DNA of 64,000 nucleotides from Candidatus Berkiella aquae (GTDB lineage: Bacteria; Pseudomonadota; Gammaproteobacteria; Berkiellales; Berkiellaceae). Below, piece by piece: positions 1 through 63,824 of this stretch. The notes under the pieces were generated by a model that was not told where the DNA came from, did no database searches, and saw nothing but the letters and a program-made list of their open reading frames with translations. The stretch spans positions 1 to 64,000 of the forward strand of contig NZ_LKAJ02000002.1 in the NCBI RefSeq assembly GCF_001431295.2. The letters are read 5' to 3'. Within the stretch, counting starts at the first letter, position 1, and every line of letters starts with the position of its first letter. The position numbers and the translations under genes were made by a program.

Positions 1-2439
1 ATGATAAAGTGGCAAGGTTTTTTTGAAAAACCCTCTCAATTTTCTCCATTCGAGCATATATTACATGAAGAGTTGCCTTACGATGCCTATGATGAGGAAC
101 ATCAGCTTTTTTATAACAAGGATACCATCAGTTTCTGTATTGAAAGTAATCCATTAACAGGAGCTAATGAAGAAGTACTTAAGTTGATTAACAATCTTTT
201 GGTGACGGGATTTCCGGAAGGTTGTATTTTGCAGGTACATTTGTTTGCATCGCCTAAAATAGGGCCTATTTTAGATAAATGGAACCAATCTCGTCTCAAT
301 AGTAATCCTATATTTGAGTATTTGACTAAAGCCCGAATTGGGCATTTAACACAATCTGCATACAAAAGTTTGTTAACCGATGAGTCGGTATTATTGAGAG
401 ATTTCAGATTGTATTTTTCAGTGATATTTGACAAAGGGGATACCGAAAAATCTTTAAGAGAGATCCTCATCGTGCGCGAACAGCTGCTAAGCGCACTCAG
501 AACCTTAGGTGTGCCTTACAAGATTGTGCAAGTGGAAGAATTTATTGCGTTGATGCGAGAATGGATTGCCCCAAATGATAAAATAGATGTTGAGAAAGTC
601 ATTTGGAATCCAAATGACACACTTAATGCTCAAATCAGCGGCCAACCTAAACCCATTGATATCAGATCAAATTTCTTACAAATTGGAGAGGAATTTGAGA
701 TCCGACCCTTAGTGGTCGAGCAATACCCACAACAATGGCCCTTGTGGGGAATGCAAAGCTTAATAGGCGATTTATTCCATATCAATCAAAGCTTATGCAG
801 CCCATTTTACTTTTCATTTTCGTTATATTTTCCATCTCAAACAAGGCAAAGAGATAGGGCAACACTCAAAAGTACTCGATGGCGCAGGCTTCATGAAAGT
901 CCAATTCGCCGGTTTTTGCCGATCACAGGGTATGTTACCCAGGAATGGGAAAATGTAAACCGAAAGGTTGCATTGGGAGAGAAATTCATTTGGGTGATGC
1001 ATTCCTTGGTTTTATATTGCAAACGTGGGGAGGGTGAGCGTGCAGTCCATGCGGCTGAAAATCTATTTTCTCTAAATGGCTGGAAATTAAAACCAACACT
1101 CTATACGACTTTGCCTGTTTGGCTAGCAAGTCTTCCGATGAGCTTAAACAAAGAATGGCTTGAAGCTATGCATGGTCTTGGTTTCGCTAAAACGATGTTA
1201 CATTCTTCTGCATCACAATTATTACCCATTATTGCTGAATCTAAAGGAACCCCTGATCCTAGACTTCTTCTTGTAGGCAGGAGGGGACAGCTATTTGGTT
1301 GGGATCCCTTTCATAATGAGAAAGCAGGAGGAAATTTTAATATCTGCGTCGTAGGTAAGCCAGGAAGTGGTAAATCAGTTGTGATGCAAGAGTTACAACT
1401 CTCTATTTTAGCAAGCGGTGGCCGGGTGTGGGTAATTGATATTGGGCGCTCAGCACAGAAAACATGCGAACTGGTTGGGGGGCAGTTAATTGATTTTGCC
1501 CCTAATTCCCAAATATGCATCAACCCCTTTAGCGATCTTGAATCGTTAACGGAAGATGATTTAAAAATGCTGAAACCCTTGATTACCAATATGGCTCTTA
1601 AAAAGCGTGATGCCACTGATATTGAGGATAGCTTCATCGAAGAGGCAATCACATCTGTCTGGAATGATTACGGCTCTAATACGACGATTACCCTTATAGC
1701 CCATTGGCTTGAAAGCCAAAGCGAAGATCTAGTGGCTAAGGAATTGGGTCGCATGCTTTACCCCTATACCTCACAAGGAATGTATGGCCGCTTATGGAAT
1801 GGTAAAAATACTATCAACTTTGATAACCCCTATGTGTTGCTTGAGCTAGACAATCTTGAAAGTACTAAAGATTTGCAGACAGTCGTTTTATTGGCTTATT
1901 TGCATCGAGTCAGCAATGCCCTATTTTTGGGCGATAGAAACCAACGCAAGATGTGTGTCATGGATGAAGTCTGGGCGTTACTCAATGGTTGTCGAGTTAC
2001 GGAGTTTATTCAAGCTTTTGCACGTCGAGCTCGCAAGCATAATGGCAGCATTATGTTGGGCACCCAAGACATTAGCGATTTTTTCAGCAGTCAAGCGGGG
2101 GAGATCTCATTTAGGATCTCAGACTGGCTGATTATGTTGCAACAAAAAGGTGAGTCTATCGATAGGTTTATCGAAAAGGGGCAGAAAAAGGTCGATGCTT
2201 ACCAAGAAAAATTGATGAAGTCTTTAAGAACGGTAAACGGTCGTTATTCAGAAATGATGATCTGTGGTGATAATTGGTATGCAGTTGGTAGGTTATTTTT
2301 AGATCCTTTCTCGCAAATACTGTATTCCTCTAAAGCGCAAGAATATCAAGCCGTCCATGACTTGCGTGAAAAAGGTTATTCGTTACCAGAGGCTATTGCA
2401 TTGGTCGCTAAAGAGGTGCAGCGTGGAAAAGGCAACTAA
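1..2439 (+). CDS. traC: TraC, F-type T4SS ATPase
   Basis: This is the cytoplasmic VirB4-class ATPase that powers pilus assembly and DNA transfer in F-type conjugation. The 812-aa product has a Walker A (GKPGSGKS, residues 452-459) and a Walker B (CVMDE, acidic pair D655/E656). The N-terminal stretch around residues 25-60 (LPYDAYDEE, then PLTGANEE) matches the TraC family. F TraC is about 875 aa, so this one is slightly short. The ATG is the first base of the window, so an upstream start cannot be excluded. It opens the visible part of the tra operon. The genes expected before it (traA, L, E, K, B, V) would lie to the left, outside the window. Confidence 0.93.
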   Translation: MIKWQGFFEKPSQFSPFEHILHEELPYDAYDEEHQLFYNKDTISFCIESNPLTGANEEVLKLINNLLVTGFPEGCILQVHLFASPKIGPILDKWNQSRLNSNPIFEYLTKARIGHLTQSAYKSLLTDESVLLRDFRLYFSVIFDKGDTEKSLREILIVREQLLSALRTLGVPYKIVQVEEFIALMREWIAPNDKIDVEKVIWNPNDTLNAQISGQPKPIDIRSNFLQIGEEFEIRPLVVEQYPQQWPLWGMQSLIGDLFHINQSLCSPFYFSFSLYFPSQTRQRDRATLKSTRWRRLHESPIRRFLPITGYVTQEWENVNRKVALGEKFIWVMHSLVLYCKRGEGERAVHAAENLFSLNGWKLKPTLYTTLPVWLASLPMSLNKEWLEAMHGLGFAKTMLHSSASQLLPIIAESKGTPDPRLLLVGRRGQLFGWDPFHNEKAGGNFNICVVGKPGSGKSVVMQELQLSILASGGRVWVIDIGRSAQKTCELVGGQLIDFAPNSQICINPFSDLESLTEDDLKMLKPLITNMALKKRDATDIEDSFIEEAITSVWNDYGSNTTITLIAHWLESQSEDLVAKELGRMLYPYTSQGMYGRLWNGKNTINFDNPYVLLELDNLESTKDLQTVVLLAYLHRVSNALFLGDRNQRKMCVMDEVWALLNGCRVTEFIQAFARRARKHNGSIMLGTQDISDFFSSQAGEISFRISDWLIMLQQKGESIDRFIEKGQKKVDAYQEKLMKSLRTVNGRYSEMMICGDNWYAVGRLFLDPFSQILYSSKAQEYQAVHDLREKGYSLPEAIALVAKEVQRGKGN

Positions 2440-3816: not shown

Positions 3817-4814
3817 AAGCTTTTATTGGATTGCTGCTCATTATTTGGCAAAGCGTCGCAGTTGCTGGAAATTTATGCCAGGGAAAATTTTTGAATCCTA
3901 TCACTGATGTATGCTGGAAATGCTTTTTCCCAATTGAGCTTGGACAACTAACATTGGTTGATGCCTCACCCAAAGCTGTGCCAGAAGTTTCTAAAAAGGA
4001 TTTACCTAACGCTATTTGTGCTTGTCCTGGCTTACCCCCCAAGGTAGGCATTTCATTTAGCTTTTGGGAGCCTTTGCGATTAGTAGAAGTGGCTAGGCAG
4101 CCCTTTTGCTTTTCAAGTCTAGGCGGCCTTCAGATTGCTTCTGGTTTATCGGGACAGGGTGGGGCGGTTGATGCAACTGAGTCCGGTGAGAATACCAGCT
4201 TTTACCATGTTCATTATTACGTTTACCCGCTTTTATATTGGTTAGAGATCCTTGAGGAGTCATCAGGCTGTGTTTCTAAAGAATCTTTCGACTTAGCTTA
4301 TTTATCAGAAGTTGACCCTACCTGGAACGACGATGAATTATCAGCCATTTTGAACCCTGAAGTTTTGCTTTATGCCAATCCAATAGCCCAGATTGCTTGT
4401 GCTGCAGATTGTGCAAAATCATCTACCGGTTTGGGATTTGACGCTTTGTATTGGTGTAGTGGTTGCCAAGGTAGTGTTTTCCCATTAACTGGTCATGTAG
4501 GAGCTCACGTGAATGGTGTTCAAGCAAGTCTGCTCTTGACTAGTCGAGTACTTTTTAGAATGCATAGAACGGGAGCCCTTCGAGGAAGCATGGGTCAAAA
4601 AGCTCTTTGTCATACTTTCTATCAGCCAATTTGGCGCAAGGCTCAATATCGTACTCAGATGGTTTATCCCATCCCCGGTATGAGTAAAGAGCCTTTTCCT
4701 TGTAATCCCGTGGGTAGGAGCTCTGTACCATGGGAAGCTGGTCGAGAATTTCCTGTTAAAGGAGAAAATTTCACATACCTTATTTGGCGAAAAAGGAGTT
4801 GCTGCCTTGGTTAA
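3813..4814 (+). CDS. traU: TraU, F-type DNA transfer protein
   Basis: This 333-aa exported, cysteine-rich protein closely matches the F TraU length (330 aa). The signal peptide (MKAFIGLLLIIWQSVAVAG) is followed by the family-typical stretch CQGKFLNPITDVCWKCFFPI. Many paired cysteines imply disulphides made by the DsbC/TrbB-like partners of the operon. TraU is needed mainly for DNA transfer rather than for pilus building. It overlaps traW by four bases (ATGA) and the following trbC by eight. Confidence 0.93.
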   Translation: MKAFIGLLLIIWQSVAVAGNLCQGKFLNPITDVCWKCFFPIELGQLTLVDASPKAVPEVSKKDLPNAICACPGLPPKVGISFSFWEPLRLVEVARQPFCFSSLGGLQIASGLSGQGGAVDATESGENTSFYHVHYYVYPLLYWLEILEESSGCVSKESFDLAYLSEVDPTWNDDELSAILNPEVLLYANPIAQIACAADCAKSSTGLGFDALYWCSGCQGSVFPLTGHVGAHVNGVQASLLLTSRVLFRMHRTGALRGSMGQKALCHTFYQPIWRKAQYRTQMVYPIPGMSKEPFPCNPVGRSSVPWEAGREFPVKGENFTYLIWRKRSCCLG

Positions 4815-5337
4815 CAAGAAAATGTTGTTTTTATTACTTTTTGGCGTTCAGTCGTTAGGATTTTGTGCCAATCCTTCTCAAGTATGTACGGCTCATTCCG
4901 AGTGCACCAATGAAGAAAGTGTTGAAGAAGTTGAGAAAAAATCAGATCTTTTCATATTCGTTTCCTTGGAAATGCCAAAAGATTCGCTTTTACAATGGTC
5001 AGAGCAAGCTAACAAAGCAGGTGGAGTTTTAGTATTGCGCGGATTGAAAAATAATTCATTGCCGCAAACTTTAGCCCTTACTAACAACTTGTGGGGAGCT
5101 AAAGCCAGAAATGTCATAATTGATCCCAACGCTTTTGAGCGATTCGCTATCAAATCTGTTCCTGCTGTGCTCATAACCAATCAAGCGCTTCAACCTTGCA
5201 CCAAAGAAGCTTGTCCAATTCCCGCTCATGACGTGATTTATGGTGATGTTGGGTTGGGTTACTCCTTAAACAAGATCAAGGAGCAGGGGGAGATGAACAA
5301 CCTAACTCAAAATTACCTAAAACGGTTAAATAGATGA
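4807..5337 (+). CDS. trbC: TrbC-family F-type assembly protein
   Basis: The product is 176 aa with a signal peptide and a TrbC domain (about residues 45-150: LFIFVSLEMPKDSLLQW, then a thioredoxin-like core ending near VPAVL). TrbC forms a periplasmic complex with TraW in pilus assembly. I take the TTG at 4807 as the start because AGGAG (4794-4798) lies eight bases before it. The in-frame ATG at 4822 would be too far from that site. F TrbC is 212 aa, so this is a shorter version. The stop overlaps the traN start (ATGA). Confidence 0.85.
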   Translation: MVNKKMLFLLLFGVQSLGFCANPSQVCTAHSECTNEESVEEVEKKSDLFIFVSLEMPKDSLLQWSEQANKAGGVLVLRGLKNNSLPQTLALTNNLWGAKARNVIIDPNAFERFAIKSVPAVLITNQALQPCTKEACPIPAHDVIYGDVGLGYSLNKIKEQGEMNNLTQNYLKRLNR

Positions 5338-24318: not shown

Positions 24319-24687
24319 TTAATTTCCATACCAAGACTTTTCCCAATCCTTCATTTGTTTTATTTCATTTTCTTGGCTATCAATTATTTTCTGAGCCATT
24401 TCCTTTATTTCTGGTCTTTCAGATTTTTTAAGCGCATCTTTCGCCATCATAATTCCGCCTTCATGATGGCCGATCATAAGATCCATAAAGCGCTTATCAT
24501 ACATAGCATCTTTTGAACCCAAAGATTCCATCATTTTGCTATCCATGGTTTTCATGTCTTTTTGCATCATCATAACTTTATGATCAGATTTATTCATATT
24601 CGGATGCTCCGCCTTTTCTGTCGCAGCAAAAGCGAGTGAATTAACCAATAAAGTTGCTATCAAAAACAAAAAATTTCTTTTTACCAT
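24319..24687 (-). CDS. Exported DUF305 protein
   Basis: The 122-aa protein has a signal peptide (about residues 1-21) and a DUF305 domain marked by FMDLMIGHHEGGIMMAKDAL and the ending QENEIKQMKDWEK. DUF305 proteins have a ferritin-like helical fold and are often carried with copper resistance genes. The His- and Met-rich periplasmic face suggests metal binding. This gene and the next (also DUF305) run in the same direction, with the HMA chaperone downstream. Confidence 0.85.
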   Translation of the reverse strand: MVKRNFLFLIATLLVNSLAFAATEKAEHPNMNKSDHKVMMMQKDMKTMDSKMMESLGSKDAMYDKRFMDLMIGHHEGGIMMAKDALKKSERPEIKEMAQKIIDSQENEIKQMKDWEKSWYGN

Positions 24688-24788
24688 TTTTAAATTCCTT
24701 TTGGAGTTAAATATTTAATTAAACATATATCAGAACATTTTAACACTTTCGCACTATGATATTTACTGCTTCCAAACGCAACTGTCTC

Positions 24789-25235
24789 TTAGGAATTTTG
24801 TAATTTTCTCTTCATCATATCAATTTCCTTTTGTTGACCTTCAATAATATCTTTACAGAGTTTTTGAATTTCTGGATCTTTTATTGGTGCTTGTTCACAC
24901 ATCAATATGGCGCCAGCATGATGAGGAATCATTGACCTTAAGAATTGTTTATCATAAATGATGGTTTGATTTCTAATAAAAAGCCAAAGAAAAATAACCA
25001 AGAGAATACTAGAAATTATAATTAATGAATTAAGTTTGCTGCTGGGATACATTGCCCGCATTAACAAAAGCTCTAGAAATACCATTGGAACAGTCATAAG
25101 TCCTGTCATATAAGCTTGATTTAAATTAAGATAAACATTCCCCATAATATTTACCATCGAATACATTAGCGCATACATAATCATGAAATGCAGCAAAGTC
25201 ATTATGGCTAGGATTTTGTACTGTTTGGTATGCAT
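24789..25235 (-). CDS. Membrane-anchored DUF305 protein
   Basis: The product is 148 aa, with three hydrophobic segments in the N-terminal two thirds followed by a short DUF305 domain (FLRSMIPHHAGAILMCEQA, then GQQKEIDMMK). It is predicted to sit in the inner membrane with its metal-binding helix pair outside. It forms a small copper-associated group with the two genes downstream. Confidence 0.8.
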   Translation of the reverse strand: MHTKQYKILAIMTLLHFMIMYALMYSMVNIMGNVYLNLNQAYMTGLMTVPMVFLELLLMRAMYPSSKLNSLIIISSILLVIFLWLFIRNQTIIYDKQFLRSMIPHHAGAILMCEQAPIKDPEIQKLCKDIIEGQQKEIDMMKRKLQNS

Positions 25236-56297: not shown

Positions 56298-57050
56298 TTA
56301 AGTTGGGCTGGGAAGTATGCGTTGTGCTTCATGAAGTGTTAAATTAGGCATTAAGCTCATTAATTTTTTTAGTTTTTCGTTATAAATGGAAGTAGGTTGT
56401 AAAGGCTTTGGGTTTTTAGGTAATGCAAAAGCTTCGGTAACCCCTTTTATAAGACTATTTATATTGGATACTGCAATTGTTGGTTTAAACTGGGGTTGTT
56501 TTTGAGATGATAAGGATTTTAGCAACACATCCTGAAATCTTCGCTTTGAGCGAGTTCTTGCCCTTTGTAATGCAAACTCTTTAATGCCCAAATCAAATAA
56601 TAGTTTAGAATTAACTCTTCTAATGGATGGTTTGTGATAATACTCTTCAGTATCGATATCATAAAAAGACTGACGGTAACCCACGATATATCCAGAACGG
56701 TATAGCCAGCTCATAGCTCTTTGTGCTCTGCGAATGTTTAAGCCGGATTTTTTGGCAATAAAATCTAAACTGAGATGTACAAAAGTGTCAGTTTCACGAT
56801 GATAAACCCCAACACACATAGTGTTTAGATCGAGATACTGAAATATAACCTTCAGAATTTCACTTATTGCTTCGCGTTGCTCAAATCTCATTGTTCTTGA
56901 TGATTGGCGACTTTGTTCTTGAAATCGCAATAGAACAGCAGAGCGTAGCCTTCCTAGCCATTTCCATGAAGACTCGACCCATTCCCCTACCCTGCCTGAC
57001 GCTAGCGATAGAATCTGTGGTGATTTTTTGTCAATAGTATAACTATTCAT
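56298..57050 (-). CDS. repA: RepA-like plasmid replication initiator (IncFII type)
   Basis: The 250-aa basic protein matches the RepA/IncFII layout: a winged-helix region (LSLDFIAKKSGLNIRRAQRA, then YRSGYIVGYRQSFYD) and a basic stretch LQRARTRSKRRFQDV that corresponds to the RRSR region of IncFII RepA. It would bind and open the origin. Upstream lie a leader frame whose stop overlaps its ATG and an antisense promoter-terminator unit, as in the R1 copA-tap-repA system. The ribosome-binding site (AAAAGGA) is inside the leader frame. I identify it from pattern and context, not a search. Confidence 0.75.
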   Translation of the reverse strand: MNSYTIDKKSPQILSLASGRVGEWVESSWKWLGRLRSAVLLRFQEQSRQSSRTMRFEQREAISEILKVIFQYLDLNTMCVGVYHRETDTFVHLSLDFIAKKSGLNIRRAQRAMSWLYRSGYIVGYRQSFYDIDTEEYYHKPSIRRVNSKLLFDLGIKEFALQRARTRSKRRFQDVLLKSLSSQKQPQFKPTIAVSNINSLIKGVTEAFALPKNPKPLQPTSIYNEKLKKLMSLMPNLTLHEAQRILPSPT

Positions 57051-57100
57051 TTCTTGGGATGAATCCTTTTGACGCCAAGAAACGAATAAACTAGAATCAT
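57047..57100 (-). CDS. Rep leader peptide (tap-like)
   Basis: A 17-codon frame (MILVYSFLGVKRIHPKK) ends with TGA overlapping the rep ATG (ATGA). Such a leader couples ribosomes to repA in IncFII plasmids (Tap). The start codon lies only a few bases from the presumed antisense RNA 5' end, so pairing would block it. Its own ribosome-binding site is weak, so this is a prediction. Confidence 0.5.
   Translation of the reverse strand: MILVYSFLGVKRIHPKK
57069..57097 (+). promoter_or_regulatory. Promoter of the rep antisense RNA
   Basis: TTGACG (57069-57074) and TAGAAT (57092-57097) have a 17-base spacer, one mismatch each from the sigma-70 consensus. It points to the right, opposite to rep, from within the leader. 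A strong terminator stands 50 bases downstream of the -10. Confidence 0.7.
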
Positions 57101-57103
57101 TTT

Positions 57104-57176
57104 ACCGGAATGATTGTTTCGTCTCTTGGCGTTACAATAAATTCAAATAAGCCCAGCTTGTCTGGGCTTATTTTTT
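57104..57176 (+). ncRNA. Candidate antisense RNA controlling rep (CopA-like)
   Basis: From the promoter just described the transcript would start at about 57104 and end in the T-run at 57176, giving about 73 nt. It is fully complementary to the leader of the rep message. It ends in an 11-bp stem with a 5-base loop (57146-57172). Upstream the DNA also has a long interrupted hairpin (57072-57132). This arrangement is that of the copy-number RNAs of IncFII and ColE2-type plasmids. There is no expression evidence. Confidence 0.6.
57146..57176 (+). terminator. Rho-independent terminator in the rep leader
   Basis: A perfect 11-bp stem (AATAAGCCCAG with CTGGGCTTATT), a CTTGT loop and a run of T on the + strand. 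It ends the presumed antisense RNA. On the - strand the same hairpin lies in the rep leader. Confidence 0.88.
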
Positions 57177-57503
57177 ATGTGGCGCCCTATTAATTAGTAT
57201 CTTATTTATAAATCAATATTTATTGTTCCAAATGCGCTATAAGTTATTTGATCTTATAGCCAATCAAAATAAAAGCAAATTTCGAAAATAAATTAAAAAC
57301 AAAAAGCCTGATATTTTTAGAAAATATAATAATCACCAGGGAAAATATTATATTTTAATTTTGAAATATAATATTTTTATTTTTTATTGTTAATGAAAAT
57401 TACATACAAAGAAATACCTCCTTAAATTTCACACAATATTTCACACACAAAAAAATACTTCTGTGTTTTTAATGATGCACGATCAGAATTCAATGAGCCT
57501 AAT
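57177..57503. other. AT-rich region upstream of rep
   Basis: Over 300 bases lie between the rep leader and the palindrome array. They are very AT-rich, with runs such as AAATATAATA and TATTATATTT in inverted orientation (about 57315-57380). It probably contains the rep promoter on the - strand, but no convincing hexamer pair was found. No gene is seen. Confidence 0.5.
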
Positions 57504-58706
57504 GTCCAGTCGCTGGACGACAAAGTAAGTGACGCAAATTGAGCGGTGTCCAGTGACTGGACGCAACGAGATGTCTTTGTGGTTGCTACCCAAAGTCTGC
57601 GTGCTATTCAATTCGAAAGGGATCCCAAAGAGGAGCTGTCCAGTGACTGGACGGTAATTGATCTAATTGAGCAGTGTCCAGTGACTGGACGCAACGAGAT
57701 GTCTTTGTGGTTGCTACCCAAAGTCTGCGCGCTATTCAATTATAAAGAGATCCCTAATAGGAGCTGTCCAGTGACTGGACGGTAAGTGACGCTTATAGAG
57801 TGGTGTTCAGTGACTGGACGCAACGAGATGTCTTTGTGGTTGCTACCCAAAGTCTGCGTGCTATTCAATTCGAAAGGGATCCCAAAGAGGAGCTGTCCAG
57901 TGACTGGACGGTAATTGATCTAATTGAGCAGTGTCCAGTGACTGGACGCAACGAGATGTCTTTGTGGTTGCTACCCAAAGTCTGCGCGCTATTCAATTAT
58001 AAAGAGATCCCTAATAGGAGCTGTCCAGTGACTGGACGGTAAGTGACGCTTATAGAGTGGTGTCCAGTGACTGGACGGTAAGTGACGCTTATAGAGTGGT
58101 GTCCAGTGACTGGACGCAACGAGATGTCTTTATGGTTGCTACCCAAAGTCTGCATGCTAATCAATTATAAAGAGATCCCAAAGAGGAGCTGTCCAGTGAC
58201 TGGACGGTAAGTGACGCTTATAGAGTGGTGTCCAGTGACTGGACGCAACGAGATGTCTTTATGGTTGCTACCCAAAGTCTGCATGCTATTCAATTATAAA
58301 GGGATCCCAAAGAGGAGCTGTCCATTGACTGGGCGGTAATTGATCTAATTGAGCAGTGTCCAGTGACCGGACACAACGAGATGTCTTTATGGTTGCTACC
58401 CAAAGTCTGCATGCTATTCAATTCGAAAGAGATCCCAAAGAGGAGCTGTCCAGTGACTGGACGGTAATTGATCTAATTGAGCAGTGTCCAGTGACTGGAC
58501 ACACGAGATGTCTTTATGGTTGCTACCCAAAGTCTGCATGCTGTTCAATTATATAAGGATCCCTAATAGGAGCTGTCCAGTGACTGGACGGTACCGAAAA
58601 GTAAAAGTAAGCAGGAGTAGGTGAGCTAGAAACTTAGTTTGTATTCGTGCTTAGTTTGTTGGGGATGATTTAATCAATGCTCCCAAATGTTGTCCAGTCA
58701 CTGGAC
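57504..58706. repeat. Array of 19 copies of a 15-bp palindrome, probable partition centromere or iteron site
   Basis: The element GTCCAGTGACTGGAC (7-1-7 palindrome) occurs at 57504, 57548, 57638, 57676, 57766, 57805, 57895, 57933, 58023, 58062, 58101, 58191, 58230, 58320, 58358, 58448, 58486, 58575 and 58692. Five copies carry one or two changes. Spacings mostly alternate between 90 and 38-39 bases, so the array is built of units of about 128 bases with conserved spacers. It lies just before parA and after the rep region. It may be the ParB-binding centromere, an iteron block for copy control, or both. Open frames through the array are an artefact of the repeat. Confidence 0.9.
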
Positions 58707-58765: not shown

Positions 58766-58808
58766 TTGTATATACAGGAATTATCATTATACTAATTACA
58801 TACGTATG
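58766..58808 (+). promoter_or_regulatory. parA promoter with palindromic operator candidate
   Basis: TTGTAT (58766-58771) and TATACT (58788-58793) have a 16-base spacer. A perfect 10-bp palindrome CATACGTATG (58799-58808) covers the expected start of transcription. This would suit autorepression by ParA/ParB or by the small third gene. Confidence 0.5.
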
Positions 58809-58853: not shown

Positions 58854-59840
58854 ATGGCAATTAATGTCCCGATTGTTGCGACAATGAATCAGAAGGGTGG
58901 TGTTGGTAAATCAACAATCACAGGAACTCAGGCTGAATGGTTCTCGCTAGTAAGAAAGAAAAGGGTTTGCCTAGTAGATCTTGACGAGCAATGTAATACA
59001 ACGAAGCAATTTGTTGGTGTTGAATATATCAATGATGATACTGAAGCTGGTTTTCAAATTAAAAAACATCCAGATTTTTCTCCACATTTAGGTGCTAATG
59101 AGCGATCTTCGATAGCAGATATATTTTATGGTGAAGCCGTTTTGCCATACCAATCATGGATCACGGAAAAAAATTCTAATGGTGGATTAGTTGACGTTTT
59201 ATGTGGGCATCCTGTCCGAATTGAGGAAATAAATAACGCCTTAGTTTCAAAGGAGGATGGAAAAGTAAATCAAACTGCAAAAGAAAGACTAAAAGAATTT
59301 TTTGATATGGAAGAGGTGCATGATGCTTATGATGTATTTTTACTTGATACAGGGCCAAGCAAGAATGTAATGTTTCGTTCCGCATTGCACGCAGCATCTC
59401 ATGTAGTAGTGCCTTTTGAACCTGAAGATAAAGCAATTCAAGGTATTACACAGATGTTAAATGCTATTAAACGTGAAAATTATTCAAGAGAAAGGGGAGC
59501 ACAGCTTAAGCTGGCTGGGTTGCTGCCTAATAAAGTGAGAAATTTAAAGCTACATAAACAATATTTAAATGATCTGTCAGAAAGATATGAAGAGTATCTA
59601 TTTCCATGGCCTTGCTGGTTAAGCTTATTGACAGATTTTCCTACAAGGGATCGTGCTGGCGTGAAGCCTCGAAGCGTATTTCAACTGCCTATAACAAATA
59701 CAGCAAGAGCCCAAGCAACAGCAATGTGTCTTTATATTGAACAAAAAATATTTGGTAAACATTTAGGCATTACCAAAGAAATTAAACAAACGCTAAACGT
59801 ATTTGAGGATGGGCTTAAAACTTTGGGAGTTAGCGCATAA
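58854..59840 (+). CDS. parA: ParA-family partition ATPase
   Basis: The 328-aa protein has the deviant Walker A KGGVGKST near residue 15, the DLDEQ motif in place of DxDPQ near residue 43, and the LLDTGPS switch near 166. It has no N-terminal DNA-binding extension, which resembles the type Ib class, although its length is intermediate. It would drive plasmid segregation together with ParB at the palindrome array. The ATG at 58854 has an AAGGA site seven bases upstream. Its stop overlaps the parB start. Confidence 0.92.
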   Translation: MAINVPIVATMNQKGGVGKSTITGTQAEWFSLVRKKRVCLVDLDEQCNTTKQFVGVEYINDDTEAGFQIKKHPDFSPHLGANERSSIADIFYGEAVLPYQSWITEKNSNGGLVDVLCGHPVRIEEINNALVSKEDGKVNQTAKERLKEFFDMEEVHDAYDVFLLDTGPSKNVMFRSALHAASHVVVPFEPEDKAIQGITQMLNAIKRENYSRERGAQLKLAGLLPNKVRNLKLHKQYLNDLSERYEEYLFPWPCWLSLLTDFPTRDRAGVKPRSVFQLPITNTARAQATAMCLYIEQKIFGKHLGITKEIKQTLNVFEDGLKTLGVSA

Positions 59841-61003
59841 TGTCAAACTTAACAAAGTCCAAGACTCATAAGATTGAAGATAAAAAACGGAAGCCTCTTT
59901 TTATAAAATCAAAGGTAAATTTAGAACAGGTCCAAAGCCTCAATCAAACAAATAAATCTACGTCTAATGAAGAACAGTCAAATTCAGACTTATTGGATAG
60001 CTTGGATTCACAGCTATCGAAAATTGAATTTTTGAATGCAAAATATTTGCCCTTACAGGCGATTCATCTAGATCCTGATAATCCAAGAAAGCTTTCTATC
60101 GATATAAACGATGTCCTTAATGGTCCAAAATTACCGGAAGAACCATTTGACGATGAGGTACAAGATGCTTTCAAAGAAACTTTAAAACAACATTTTGGTG
60201 TTGAAGATAATAAAAAACAAAAGATCCAAGATTATCTTTCTATCGCATTATTAGCTTCATCCATCAAAGTGCCTGAAAGATTAATACAGCCAATATGTGT
60301 ATATGGTAAAGGAAATAAATATATTCTTCTTGCTGGCGAAAGACGTACCTTGGCGCATCATGTTATGGGCGCTAAGTTTATAGCTGCCAACATAATTATT
60401 GAGCCTGAGAACAAAGAGAAGGCTTTGCTTCAATATATTGAGAATTCATCGCGTGAGGACCTCTCACTTAAAGATAAGTATGGGGCAATTAGAAAAATAA
60501 TCTCATATTACAGCGAGTCTGTATCAGCTAGATCGCTAGCAAGTATTTTGCGGATCTCAAAATCACAAGCTCAAAAATATTCAAAGATATGCAAAGAAGA
60601 AAATATAATTTTTAAAAGGGCAATAGAAACGGGAGTTTTAACTTCACCTGAAGACGCTTACAATATTATTAAGAGTAATGATTCGAACATGATAACTAAT
60701 ATCTGTAATTTATTACTGAAGGGAAAAGGTATTGAGGAAGCTTTACAGGAAATCAACAATCAAACATCGGTAAGACCTAACTTAAAGCCGAAAAGAATAA
60801 TTTCACCTAACCCTGTACATGAAACAAAAGATGAACAAAAGGTTTTATTTAAAGGCGATGATATTAATGTGCTTAAAGAATTAATTCATATTGCAATAAA
60901 AGGTGGAAAGTTAGATCTTTCTATAGATGATTTTAAAAACAAAGATATTGATTTTTCAAGTCTTTGGAAAAAAATCAAAGACATAGTTGCAAAAGCAAGG
61001 TGA
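59840..61003 (+). CDS. parB: ParB-family partition protein
   Basis: The 387-aa protein has a long variable N terminus, then a ParB/Srx domain (PLQAIHLDPDNPRK from about residue 73, then LIQPICVYGKGNKYILLAGERR around 150-175). A helix-turn-helix follows (RSLASILRISKSQAQKYSKI near 233-252) and a C-terminal part. An unusual acidic insertion (about 90-130) splits the ParB box from the next motif. It probably binds the array and activates ParA. Confidence 0.92.
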   Translation: MSNLTKSKTHKIEDKKRKPLFIKSKVNLEQVQSLNQTNKSTSNEEQSNSDLLDSLDSQLSKIEFLNAKYLPLQAIHLDPDNPRKLSIDINDVLNGPKLPEEPFDDEVQDAFKETLKQHFGVEDNKKQKIQDYLSIALLASSIKVPERLIQPICVYGKGNKYILLAGERRTLAHHVMGAKFIAANIIIEPENKEKALLQYIENSSREDLSLKDKYGAIRKIISYYSESVSARSLASILRISKSQAQKYSKICKEENIIFKRAIETGVLTSPEDAYNIIKSNDSNMITNICNLLLKGKGIEEALQEINNQTSVRPNLKPKRIISPNPVHETKDEQKVLFKGDDINVLKELIHIAIKGGKLDLSIDDFKNKDIDFSSLWKKIKDIVAKAR

Positions 61004-61006
61004 TAT

Positions 61007-61411
61007 ATGGTTAAAGCATTTAATCCTCCACATGCGAGAAAGTCAAAATCGGCAAAACCTCTAAAATTAAATAGTAGTGTACGAAGAGCTTCTATTAGAA
61101 TGCCTGAAAAAATGCTTGAAGAAGTTAATAAAATTCTTGAACTTGAGGGTAAGACCCACAAGGGCAAATGGATTTCAAAAGCAATTATTGATTTATATGA
61201 AACTGAGGACTTTATTGGTCTAATTGATGAAGAATGGTTTGATAGGGCAAATAATTTTGCAATTCAGGTAGTCTTAACAAAAGAAGCTCAAAGTGCTTTG
61301 AATAATATAATAAAAGAAGCTAAACAGCAGGGGTTAGAAAGAAATGATTTCATTAGTGCGACAATAAGGGTCGCCATAACTAATGCTCTAGTTAGAGAGG
61401 GAAACTTCTGA
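61007..61411 (+). CDS. Small basic protein, third gene of the partition operon
   Basis: The 134-aa protein has a basic N terminus (HARKSKSAKPLK), then RASIRMPEKMLEEVNKIL, which fits a ribbon-helix-helix start. A second similar helix pair near the C terminus reads VVLTKEAQSALNNIIKEAK. It starts three bases after parB behind an AGGTGAT site. It may be a DNA-binding regulator or centromere accessory factor. I cannot name a family. Confidence 0.65.
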   Translation: MVKAFNPPHARKSKSAKPLKLNSSVRRASIRMPEKMLEEVNKILELEGKTHKGKWISKAIIDLYETEDFIGLIDEEWFDRANNFAIQVVLTKEAQSALNNIIKEAKQQGLERNDFISATIRVAITNALVREGNF

Positions 61412-61742: not shown

Positions 61743-62495
61743 ATGAATCATGGAAGTTTCGATAAGCACAAGCTAATACCAGAGCCTTTGCCCTCAGGTC
61801 TTATCCCCACACTAAATAAAATGGGGTATATGACTCAATTCATAGATGAATATTCCCAAAAATTTATTGACGATGCTAAGTATGCCGATGCGCCGGTTTT
61901 AGAAATAGGGGCTGCGTATGGTATAGCAACGCTTCAGGCACTCAGCAATGGGGCTAGGGTAGTATCTAACGACCTTGATGAGCAGCATCTCAAAATACTT
62001 GGGCAAATATGCCCTAAAGAGCTACTTCACAATTTAATATTATTACCTGGAAAGTTTCCTGATGATATTAATATCGATGATAATTCTATTTATTCAATAT
62101 TAATGTGTCGAGTAGTACATTTTTTTACTCCAGTTGAAATAAAGCAAGCCTTCAAAAAAGCCTTTAATATTTTAGCGCCGGGAGGAAAGATATATATTAT
62201 CGCAGATACCCCTTATCAAAAAAATTGGTCGAAATTTCTTGCGACATATGAACAGAAAAAGAGAAGTGGGGAAAAATTTCCTGGATTTATTGTAAACTCT
62301 GATGACTTTATAACAGACTTGGCCTTTAATCTTCCTAAAATGTTTAATTTTATGGATACCGAAGTGCTTCTTCGAGAGTTGACCGAAGTGGGATTTTTAA
62401 TTGAAAAGTTAGAATATATAAATCGATTAAATTATCCTGAAACAGTAAGACTAGATGGAAGAGAGAGCGTAGGGGCTATAGCCGTTAAATCGTAG
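61743..62495 (+). CDS. SAM-dependent methyltransferase (class I)
   Basis: The 250-aa protein has the class I motif VLEIGAAYGIATLQAL (residues 53-68), then an acidic residue after the second strand (VVSNDLDEQH) and the post-motif stretch LAPGGKIYIIADTP. The substrate cannot be read from the sequence. A small molecule is more likely than DNA, because no target-recognition domain is present. It is followed 15 bases later by an MFS transporter and a thioesterase. Confidence 0.82.
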   Translation: MNHGSFDKHKLIPEPLPSGLIPTLNKMGYMTQFIDEYSQKFIDDAKYADAPVLEIGAAYGIATLQALSNGARVVSNDLDEQHLKILGQICPKELLHNLILLPGKFPDDINIDDNSIYSILMCRVVHFFTPVEIKQAFKKAFNILAPGGKIYIIADTPYQKNWSKFLATYEQKKRSGEKFPGFIVNSDDFITDLAFNLPKMFNFMDTEVLLRELTEVGFLIEKLEYINRLNYPETVRLDGRESVGAIAVKS

Positions 62496-62510
62496 TTGAG
62501 GTTTAGTAGT

Positions 62511-63824
62511 ATGGACAGCCATTTCAAGGATAGATTGCTGAAGCCGATTATTGGCTGCAGCTTAGGCACATTCCTAGAATTTTTAGATTTTGCTTTGTAT
62601 GCATCGTTAGCTCCAGTCTTTGCATTAAAATTCTTTCCCAAGGAATATCATGAGATCTCCGTCATTTACGCATGGGGCATTTTTGCAGTAAGCTTTATCG
62701 CCCGGCCATTTTCAGGCTTAATATTGGGGCCAATCGGAGACAGGATCGGAATCAAGAAAATTCTTCTGTTTTCTTTAGCCATAATGGGACTTGCAACTAC
62801 GGCGATTGGGATTTTGCCAACCTATGATCAAATAGGACTACTTGCACCTTTATTATTAATATTATTAAGAATAATTCAGGGTTTAGCTGTTAGTATTGAA
62901 TACAACAGCCTTGGAGTATACCTTCTACAGCAAAATGGCATTGCTAAGAAATTTGGATTTTACTCTAGCTTTACATCAGTTGGAGTAATTGCAGGTTTAA
63001 TATCAGGCAGCCTTATTGTTGGTTTATTTTTAAACAAGTCTTCACTCATTGATATTCCTGATTGGCAATGGAGAATGCCTTTTATAAGCTGTGGGCTGGT
63101 AGTTAGTGTATTGGGGATATTTCTAAGACAGCAAATGCAAGACCCTCATAAAAGCTCCTGCTCCTATTCTGAAAGGGGAGTATTAAAAAGTCTTTTCTGT
63201 AATCAAATAAAGCAGTTGTTTATGGCTATTTTTGTAACAGGCTTTATTAGTATTTCAGCTTATATTGCCATCGGTTATATGGCGACCTATTTGCAACTTT
63301 ATAGAAACTTTCTACTAAAAGAATCAATATTAGTTTGTTGTGCCTGCGGTATTGCTATGCTTATATCTGTCCCAATTGGAGGATGGATTTCTGATAAGCT
63401 AGGAAGAACGCGCTTTATGGCGGTTTCTTCTTTATCAATGTCAATTATTTCAATCCTTTCTATGGGATTGATTGCCTATGGGCAGTCAAAAATCCTTATT
63501 TTAGGACTCCTGCTGCTTTCAATTAATACAGGCATTTCAGCTGGAGGACTGCCGGCATTTGTAACTGAGCTGTTTCATAGCGATCATCGATATACGGGTT
63601 CAACGATTGCTTATAATGCTGGGGTTGCCTGGATAGGGGGCACAGCCCCGATGATAATATCTCTCTTGTTAATGAAAACAAATAATCCGATGATCCCTGG
63701 TATATATTTGTCTTTCTTTTCTCTGTTAGGTTTTATTGCGGCTATGGCATTAAACCAACGAAAGCAATGTAACGATAAATTACGCGTTTATCCTATTAAT
63801 AATAAGGAAGTAAAACATGTTTGA
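62511..63824 (+). CDS. MFS transporter, metabolite:H+ symporter type
   Basis: The 437-aa protein has 12 predicted helices and the MHS-type loops GPIGDRIGIKKILL (helices 2-3) and GGWISDKLGRTRF (helices 8-9). It is related to proline/betaine, shikimate and alpha-ketoglutarate permeases. The ATG at 62511 has GAGG nine bases upstream. A TTG at 62496 is less likely. Its end overlaps the next gene by eight bases. It could import or export the compound processed by the neighbouring enzymes. Confidence 0.85.
   Translation: MDSHFKDRLLKPIIGCSLGTFLEFLDFALYASLAPVFALKFFPKEYHEISVIYAWGIFAVSFIARPFSGLILGPIGDRIGIKKILLFSLAIMGLATTAIGILPTYDQIGLLAPLLLILLRIIQGLAVSIEYNSLGVYLLQQNGIAKKFGFYSSFTSVGVIAGLISGSLIVGLFLNKSSLIDIPDWQWRMPFISCGLVVSVLGIFLRQQMQDPHKSSCSYSERGVLKSLFCNQIKQLFMAIFVTGFISISAYIAIGYMATYLQLYRNFLLKESILVCCACGIAMLISVPIGGWISDKLGRTRFMAVSSLSMSIISILSMGLIAYGQSKILILGLLLLSINTGISAGGLPAFVTELFHSDHRYTGSTIAYNAGVAWIGGTAPMIISLLLMKTNNPMIPGIYLSFFSLLGFIAAMALNQRKQCNDKLRVYPINNKEVKHV

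Follow-up and report, generated by a model that had tools for sequence, protein, structure and literature searches.

A 19-copy palindrome array upstream of parA, a probable parS centromere within a family of plasmid ParABS operons

The par operon, the rep gene and the array between them

The window analysed here comprises bases 1-64,000 of a 71,223-base contig (G000:C2) from a gammaproteobacterial genome of three contigs and 3.59 Mb. Three genes on its + strand form a par operon. The first, parA (58854..59840, +), encodes a 328-aa deviant Walker ATPase with a KGGVGKST motif (Pfam AAA_31, 1.2e-24), and its stop codon overlaps the start of parB (59840..61003, +) directly downstream. For the 387-aa ParB, profiles, motifs and a fold model indicate a ParB_N CTPase-type domain and a helix-turn-helix (HTH) with the recognition helix at about S240-K246. 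Profile scores were 3e-13 for TIGR04285, 7e-10 for TIGR00180 (below the cut-off) and 26.0 vs 26.3 bits for Pfam ParB_N. The CTPase-pocket motifs GERR (G166 E167 R168 R169) and ENxxR (E201 N202 .. R205) are invariant in 23 relatives, and the modelled fold resembles those of Noc, chromosomal ParB and RK2 KorB (Foldseek E about 1e-8; 2e-7 for KorB). The third gene (61007..61411, +) encodes a 134-aa protein predicted to carry two ribbon-helix-helix (RHH) units in one chain. Its structure model folds like F TraY, the best match being to one chain in entry 9f10, the F relaxosome (VIA-align 2: Z 10.6; 2.6 A for 100 residues); we take this chain to be TraY. Downstream of par lies a methyltransferase and MFS transporter gene pair (61743-63824), of which a diverged copy adjoins rep on C3, the other plasmid-size contig of the host (L068:12519-14585).

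Divergent from par, a 250-aa putative replication initiator, rep (56298..57050, -), has homologues on the co-resident plasmid C3 (50% identity), on the plasmid of a related genus, G008 (50-52%), and on a contig of the same genus, G004 (74%). The protein matches no Pfam family and shows weak helix-turn-helix similarity. The region from rep to the array (57052..57480, unstranded) consists of the rep leader and an AT-rich stretch and is a candidate origin region. The leader (57052-57173) contains stem-loops, among them CCAAGAAACGAA...TTTCGTCTCTTGG and a terminator-like hairpin (57145-57173), and the G004 plasmid has a similar sequence there; RNA-based copy control is possible. On the other side of the array we predicted a parA promoter (58766..58808, +; TTGTATATACA ... 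TATACT), which is accompanied by the palindrome CATACGTATG (58799-58808). The latter is also found upstream of parA in the G008 plasmid and is likely to be the operator of the par operon, distinct from parS.

The array itself (57504..58706, unstranded) was delimited by sequence scan and contains 19 copies of a 15-bp palindrome, GTCCAGT-S-ACTGGAC. Exact GTCCAGTSACTGGAC accounts for 15 of the 19, the remaining copies having one mismatch (57504, 57805 and 58358) or two (58320). At up to two mismatches 0.03 matches are expected from shuffles of the window, and no further copy was found elsewhere in the whole genome (3.59 Mb scanned). The start-to-start spacings are 44, 90, 38, 90, 39, 90, 38, 90, 39, 39, 90, 39, 90, 38, 90, 38, 89 and 117 bp, so that the alternation of 90 and 38-39 bp is broken solely at both ends of the array and at one duplicated 39-bp unit (58022-58116). 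Together with Tandem Repeats Finder (TRF), which reported a 128-bp unit and a higher-order 257-bp unit, these spacings indicate tandem amplification between 57525 and 58593 (unstranded) of a 128-bp unit (90 + 38/39 bp) and the 257-bp unit, with the extra 39-bp unit inserted. The initial annotation had described about 1.2 kb with 19 palindromes, the 90/38 alternation and the amplification of a two-palindrome unit of about 128 bases, all of which our scan bears out apart from the irregular ends and the duplicated unit. It had also pointed to a 7-1-7 symmetry with a differing centre in the first and last copies. This is correct but of minor importance, because a C centre in an odd palindrome is a G centre on the other strand; the first copy has one arm mismatch besides. 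The last, parA-proximal copy (58692..58706, unstranded) was found in the same scan, is C-centred on the + strand and lies about 60 bp ahead of the predicted parA promoter.

The spacers are about 94% alike, and the 257-bp block is repeated almost perfectly. Deviations from the consensus amount to 4 of 255 bases in the palindromes and 33 of 600 in the long spacers (Fisher p = 0.009, the copies not being independent). A DNA search of 72,556 plasmids with the array region returned zero matches, near or distant, and RNA family searches of the same region gave sub-threshold matches alone.

The palindrome in related plasmids

On a 70-kb contig from another genus of the same family (G008:C2), rep, palindromes, parA, parB and the third gene follow each other in the same order as in the window. 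The par proteins are 80% (ParA), 61% (ParB) and 55% (third gene) identical to those of the window. Between rep and parA this plasmid has eight copies of the window palindrome, irregularly spaced and in 154-bp units, and the DNA between the sites shares zero 9-mers with that of the window. The same-genus contig G004:C44 carries, beside its rep, at least 5 sites, of which two are degenerate, spaced 43-46 bp apart up to the contig end; a parB of the window's kind was not found in the G004 assembly. Common 8-mers of the G008 and G004 arrays were considered as shared spacer DNA and rejected, as they stem from degenerate palindromes that had escaped masking. The palindrome is thus conserved across the three plasmids while spacers, unit length and copy number vary. 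With 19, 8 and at least 5 sites on unrelated spacers and unit lengths, the high copy number would therefore have arisen or been renewed repeatedly.

The co-resident plasmid C3 (102.6 kb) combines its rep homologue with a different ParA and another par system. At up to two mismatches the window palindrome is missing from C3, whose par and rep genes have another array between them, made of 11/12-bp repeats. These are phased, form two blocks (L068:9550-10150; G000:C3, about 24550-25150) with the consensus GCTATCCTTTT and about 30 degenerate copies, lie between an HTH-ParA gene and rep, and are a candidate for a different centromere or a block of iterons in the corresponding position. C3 also contains a perfect tandem array of CTGCCGAATCG (10.9 copies, L068:6662-6781). 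Outside the clade of the window, G008 and G004, this rep gene was found in none of the distant palindrome-bearing loci. Since the C3 rep lacks the palindrome and the distant palindrome loci lack this rep, the site goes with parB and not with rep.

These distant loci were collected by a ParB alignment search, whereas a single-sequence ParB search of the genome contigs gave no relatives. The 50 loci belong to Legionellales, other Gammaproteobacteria and a few other phyla, and the three-gene operon is present in nearly all of them. Profile comparison supports homology of the window's ParB and third protein to those of the distant relatives (99.7% and 97%, respectively). Among viral contigs we found weak ParB relatives alone and no site pair within 45 bp. 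A search of the open-access (PMC) literature gave no description of the operon family or of its composite site, though one may exist elsewhere.

A perfect 7-1-7 palindrome directly follows the stop of the third gene in 16 of 26 loci (the Legionella anisa-like clade left out), compared to 0.5% of control windows; if one mismatch is tolerated, the numbers are 20 of 26 and 7%. Most of the sites share a core of about (A/G)GTSAC(T/C), while the arms differ: GTTAAGT, GTTCAGT, CTTAAGT, CTCAAGT, GTTCGGT and ATTCGGT, and in two more cases GTAAAGC and TTTTCCC. The window's GTCCAGT is one more arm variant. The L. anisa-like clade, which at first looked negative, has TGTCCCC-S-GGGG sites on the - strand upstream of parA, each with a match to the IHF consensus; they were found by a composite scan for a palindrome with IHF at +6..8. 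An independent array was found on a Legionellales metagenome contig (L096:6347-6536), where six CTCAAGTCACTTGAG follow each other at exactly 35 bp without an IHF box. The spacings of the sites (90, 38/39, 35, 43-46 and 112-197 bp) have no common helical phase.

Several further repeats were seen at these loci. In L092, a perfect parS-class palindrome CTCAAGTCACTTGAG lies within the parA coding sequence (4811-4825), in addition to the usual one after the third gene. In the plasmid loci of Legionella longbeachae and L. santicrucis (L070:5855-6137 and L095:6440-6720), each parS palindrome adjoins a 17-bp element, ATGTGACGTTTGCAGG. Read on the opposite strand, this element matches an array of direct repeats ahead of parA, which are probably Rep iterons; sites for replication and for partition may be intermingled at these loci. 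Direct repeats of 21-22 bp that precede parA in Legionella, Aquicella and Manganitrophus were considered as sites but set aside as probable Rep iterons.

ParB specificity and the IHF box

In the closest group of loci, base 4 of the palindrome arm corresponds to one residue of the ParB recognition helix: A occurs with proline and C with serine in 15 of 15 loci. The ParB proteins of the window and G008 have serine at this position (S242 in the window) and sites with C. An exception is L099, which has a different core and combines C with proline. Judged by the spacing of motifs, this position is residue 174 in Caulobacter ParB, beside R173, one of the residues found experimentally to set specificity (PMC7383237). 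Three changes are required to explain the GTTC class on a tree from which the HTH region was left out. Among ParA columns, none separates the two classes; among ParB columns ten do, including four within the HTH or immediately ahead of it, and position 280 is one that also separates them cleanly. The covariation between helix and base favours ParB as the reader of the palindrome, but the argument is statistical and rests on 15 loci, and other ParB columns separate the classes as well. Mapping the site residues onto the window ParB is less certain, because this protein sits on a long branch and is 22-29% identical to its distant relatives.

In single-site relatives, a match to the IHF consensus YAANNNNTTGATW with at most one mismatch starts 6-8 bases past the palindrome in 15 of 19 loci, compared to 0.4% in the background. 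When all loci with one or two sites that were found without reference to IHF are taken, the match at +6..8 is present in 18 of 22. It is present in 0 of 6 loci with at least three sites, namely the window (19), G008 (8), G004 (at least 5), L096 (6), L070 and L095 (3 each), which represent three lineages. Within the window array there are likewise 0 IHF matches at up to one mismatch (shuffle mean 1.2), and it thus has no P1-like IHF box. L084 and the L. anisa-like sites were left out of this count because IHF served to find them. With L084 counted, 19/23 against 0/6 gives a Fisher p of 0.0004, and against the three collapsed lineages 0.013; without L084 the values are about 0.0006 and 0.015 (hand calculation on the same counts). 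IhfA and IhfB genes scoring above curated cut-offs are present in both the host of the window and G008, so the loss of the box is not explained by a missing protein. All IHF sites in this comparison are consensus matches. Because the match accompanies one or two sites and is absent where there are at least three, one ParB family seems to span both P1-like (IHF and one site) and F sopC-like (many sites) centromere designs.

Interpretation and comparison with known systems

The locus has the elements of a type I ParABS system: an upstream deviant Walker ParA, a ParB with ParB_N domain and HTH, and a conserved inverted-repeat site nearby. We consider it very probable that the array is the parS centromere of the adjoining parA-parB-third-gene operon on a 71-kb plasmid. 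The centromere reading had been put forward in the initial annotation and is now well supported by conservation in relatives and by the recognition-helix covariation. One ParB dimer would bind each 15-bp palindrome through its helix-turn-helix, as conservation and covariation suggest. Having CTP-clamp motifs, ParB would load at the sites and spread into a partition complex, which ParA would move over the nucleoid; loading, spreading and ParA-driven movement are established for the ParB clamp family. A second plasmid with the same site would be expected to compete for ParB, and partition incompatibility is therefore a plausible consequence of the array. Replication control by the array is unnecessary to account for any of the observations.

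The array could also serve replication control, as a set of iterons that the 250-aa Rep would bind, with titration and handcuffing as the mode of action. It has rep on one side, par on the other and an AT-rich stretch beside it, and repeated sites adjoining a rep gene are at the classic iteron location. However, the sites do not follow rep across plasmids: the C3 homologue comes with another repeat array, the palindrome-bearing relatives outside the clade all lack this rep, and the covariation points to ParB. That the site tracks parB counts against both iterons and handcuffing, so that the handcuffing region suggested at first finds no support and we hold this reading to be very improbable. 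Small RHH proteins are the centromere-binding proteins of type Ib systems, and the 134-aa tandem RHH protein might bind the palindromes as a centromere-binding or regulatory protein. Its gene belongs to the same operon in nearly all relatives, it is predicted to bind DNA, and the site usually lies directly after its gene. Yet its DNA-contacting strand does not follow the site sequence, which makes it the less likely binder: KVKITFVLP is identical in GTTA loci (L077 and L078) and a GTTC locus (L079), and only two columns of the protein separate the classes, both outside this first strand. The spacings without helical phase also argue against it, the conserved parA-promoter palindrome is a better candidate for its operator, and in the IncC operon the third protein is dispensable for partition (PMC10954446). 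Binding of the array by the RHH protein is thus unlikely, though somewhat less so than the iterons.

A different question is whether the number of sites matters. Even if the palindromes are ParB sites, recent recombination may incidentally have multiplied one or two functional ones to 19, the number itself having no function. The likeness of the spacers and the near-perfect repetition of the 257-bp block fit this view, and recent amplification alone can yield many copies without selection for number. Moreover, one site is enough in the relatives, and a review states that nearly every system tested needs no more than one copy (PMC5016525). Against this, the three plasmids of the clade keep their 8, 19 and at least 5 sites on unrelated spacers and unit lengths, the palindromes have changed less than the spacers, and it is mainly the multi-site lineages that lack the IHF box. 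We regard a functionless copy number as rather unlikely. Our own proposal on copy number is tentative: the usual parS of the family would be a single palindrome with IHF about 7 bp away, and at least three lineages would have lost IHF and gained 3 to 19 palindromes, site number substituting for IHF-assisted assembly. In the layout usual for the relatives, one palindrome is followed by an IHF-like site at 6-8 bases; in the window's clade the box is absent and the palindrome, placed upstream of parA, has been copied to 8-19 sites, which would take over the help that IHF gives to complex assembly. That extra sites replace this help is the most likely reading, but it rests on three lineages and is the weakest link of the explanation.

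The family around the array matters more than the array itself, which, though large, belongs to a known type. This family provides about 50 related ParABS loci in which the site can be read, comprising at least 8 site sequences, 1 to 19 copies and layouts with or without an IHF-like box. This makes a change of ParB specificity testable (one helix position against one base), as well as the purpose of many centromere copies. If the substitution of IHF is true, the loci form a natural series on why some centromeres have many sites though one mostly suffices.

Among known systems, the array is most readily compared to F sopABC, which likewise has short inverted repeats in a tandem block beside parAB on a low-copy plasmid, an HTH ParB and a Walker ParA. 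The 43-bp repeat of F sopC occurs twelve times (PMC9178275), and about 10 of these copies are functional (PMC7205306); sopC lies downstream of sopB, has another palindrome sequence and a uniform 43-bp spacing, and is without a third RHH gene. In the window, too, numerous inverted repeats stand in tandem as a single block next to parAB, but these 19 sites lie upstream of parA and alternate at 90/38 bp, and neither the uniform 43 bp nor the downstream position of sopC is seen. The 43-46 bp spacing on the same-genus G004 contig is near that of F. In P1 parABS, IHF bending promotes ParB binding to parS, and the need for several sites elsewhere has been described as unclear (PMC5016525). The relatives resemble P1 in having a ParB-type palindrome and an IHF-consensus match at a fixed distance by the par operon, but A- and B-boxes flank IHF on both sides in P1 (PMC5016525), whereas the single palindrome of the relatives has a single IHF box to one side; the window array has lost this box. 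IncC parAB053, by its layout, is a similar three-gene par operon with many palindromic parS copies, of which there are 14, and extra parS copies cause incompatibility (PMC10954446). Its sites are scattered, even inside genes, and have a 14-bp core with flanks, an even palindrome. RK2 KorB, whose fold matches the window ParB at E 2e-7, is a plasmid ParB-family CTP clamp that acts from plasmid operator copies (PMC11790492). Unlike the window ParB, whose sites all lie in one block, KorB is also a global repressor at many promoters and has KorA as a partner. The initial view that the array is unusual, ParB sites being usually few, is therefore half right: F and IncC have twelve and 14 sites, yet a single block of 19 stands at the upper end of the range, and the relatives of this operon mostly have one. 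Taken together, the sequence comparisons indicate that the array is a real, large plasmid centromere of a ParABS family with a tandem RHH third gene, of a kind known from F sopC. It is a variant in size, position and site sequence and, family-wide, in the composite palindrome-IHF site.
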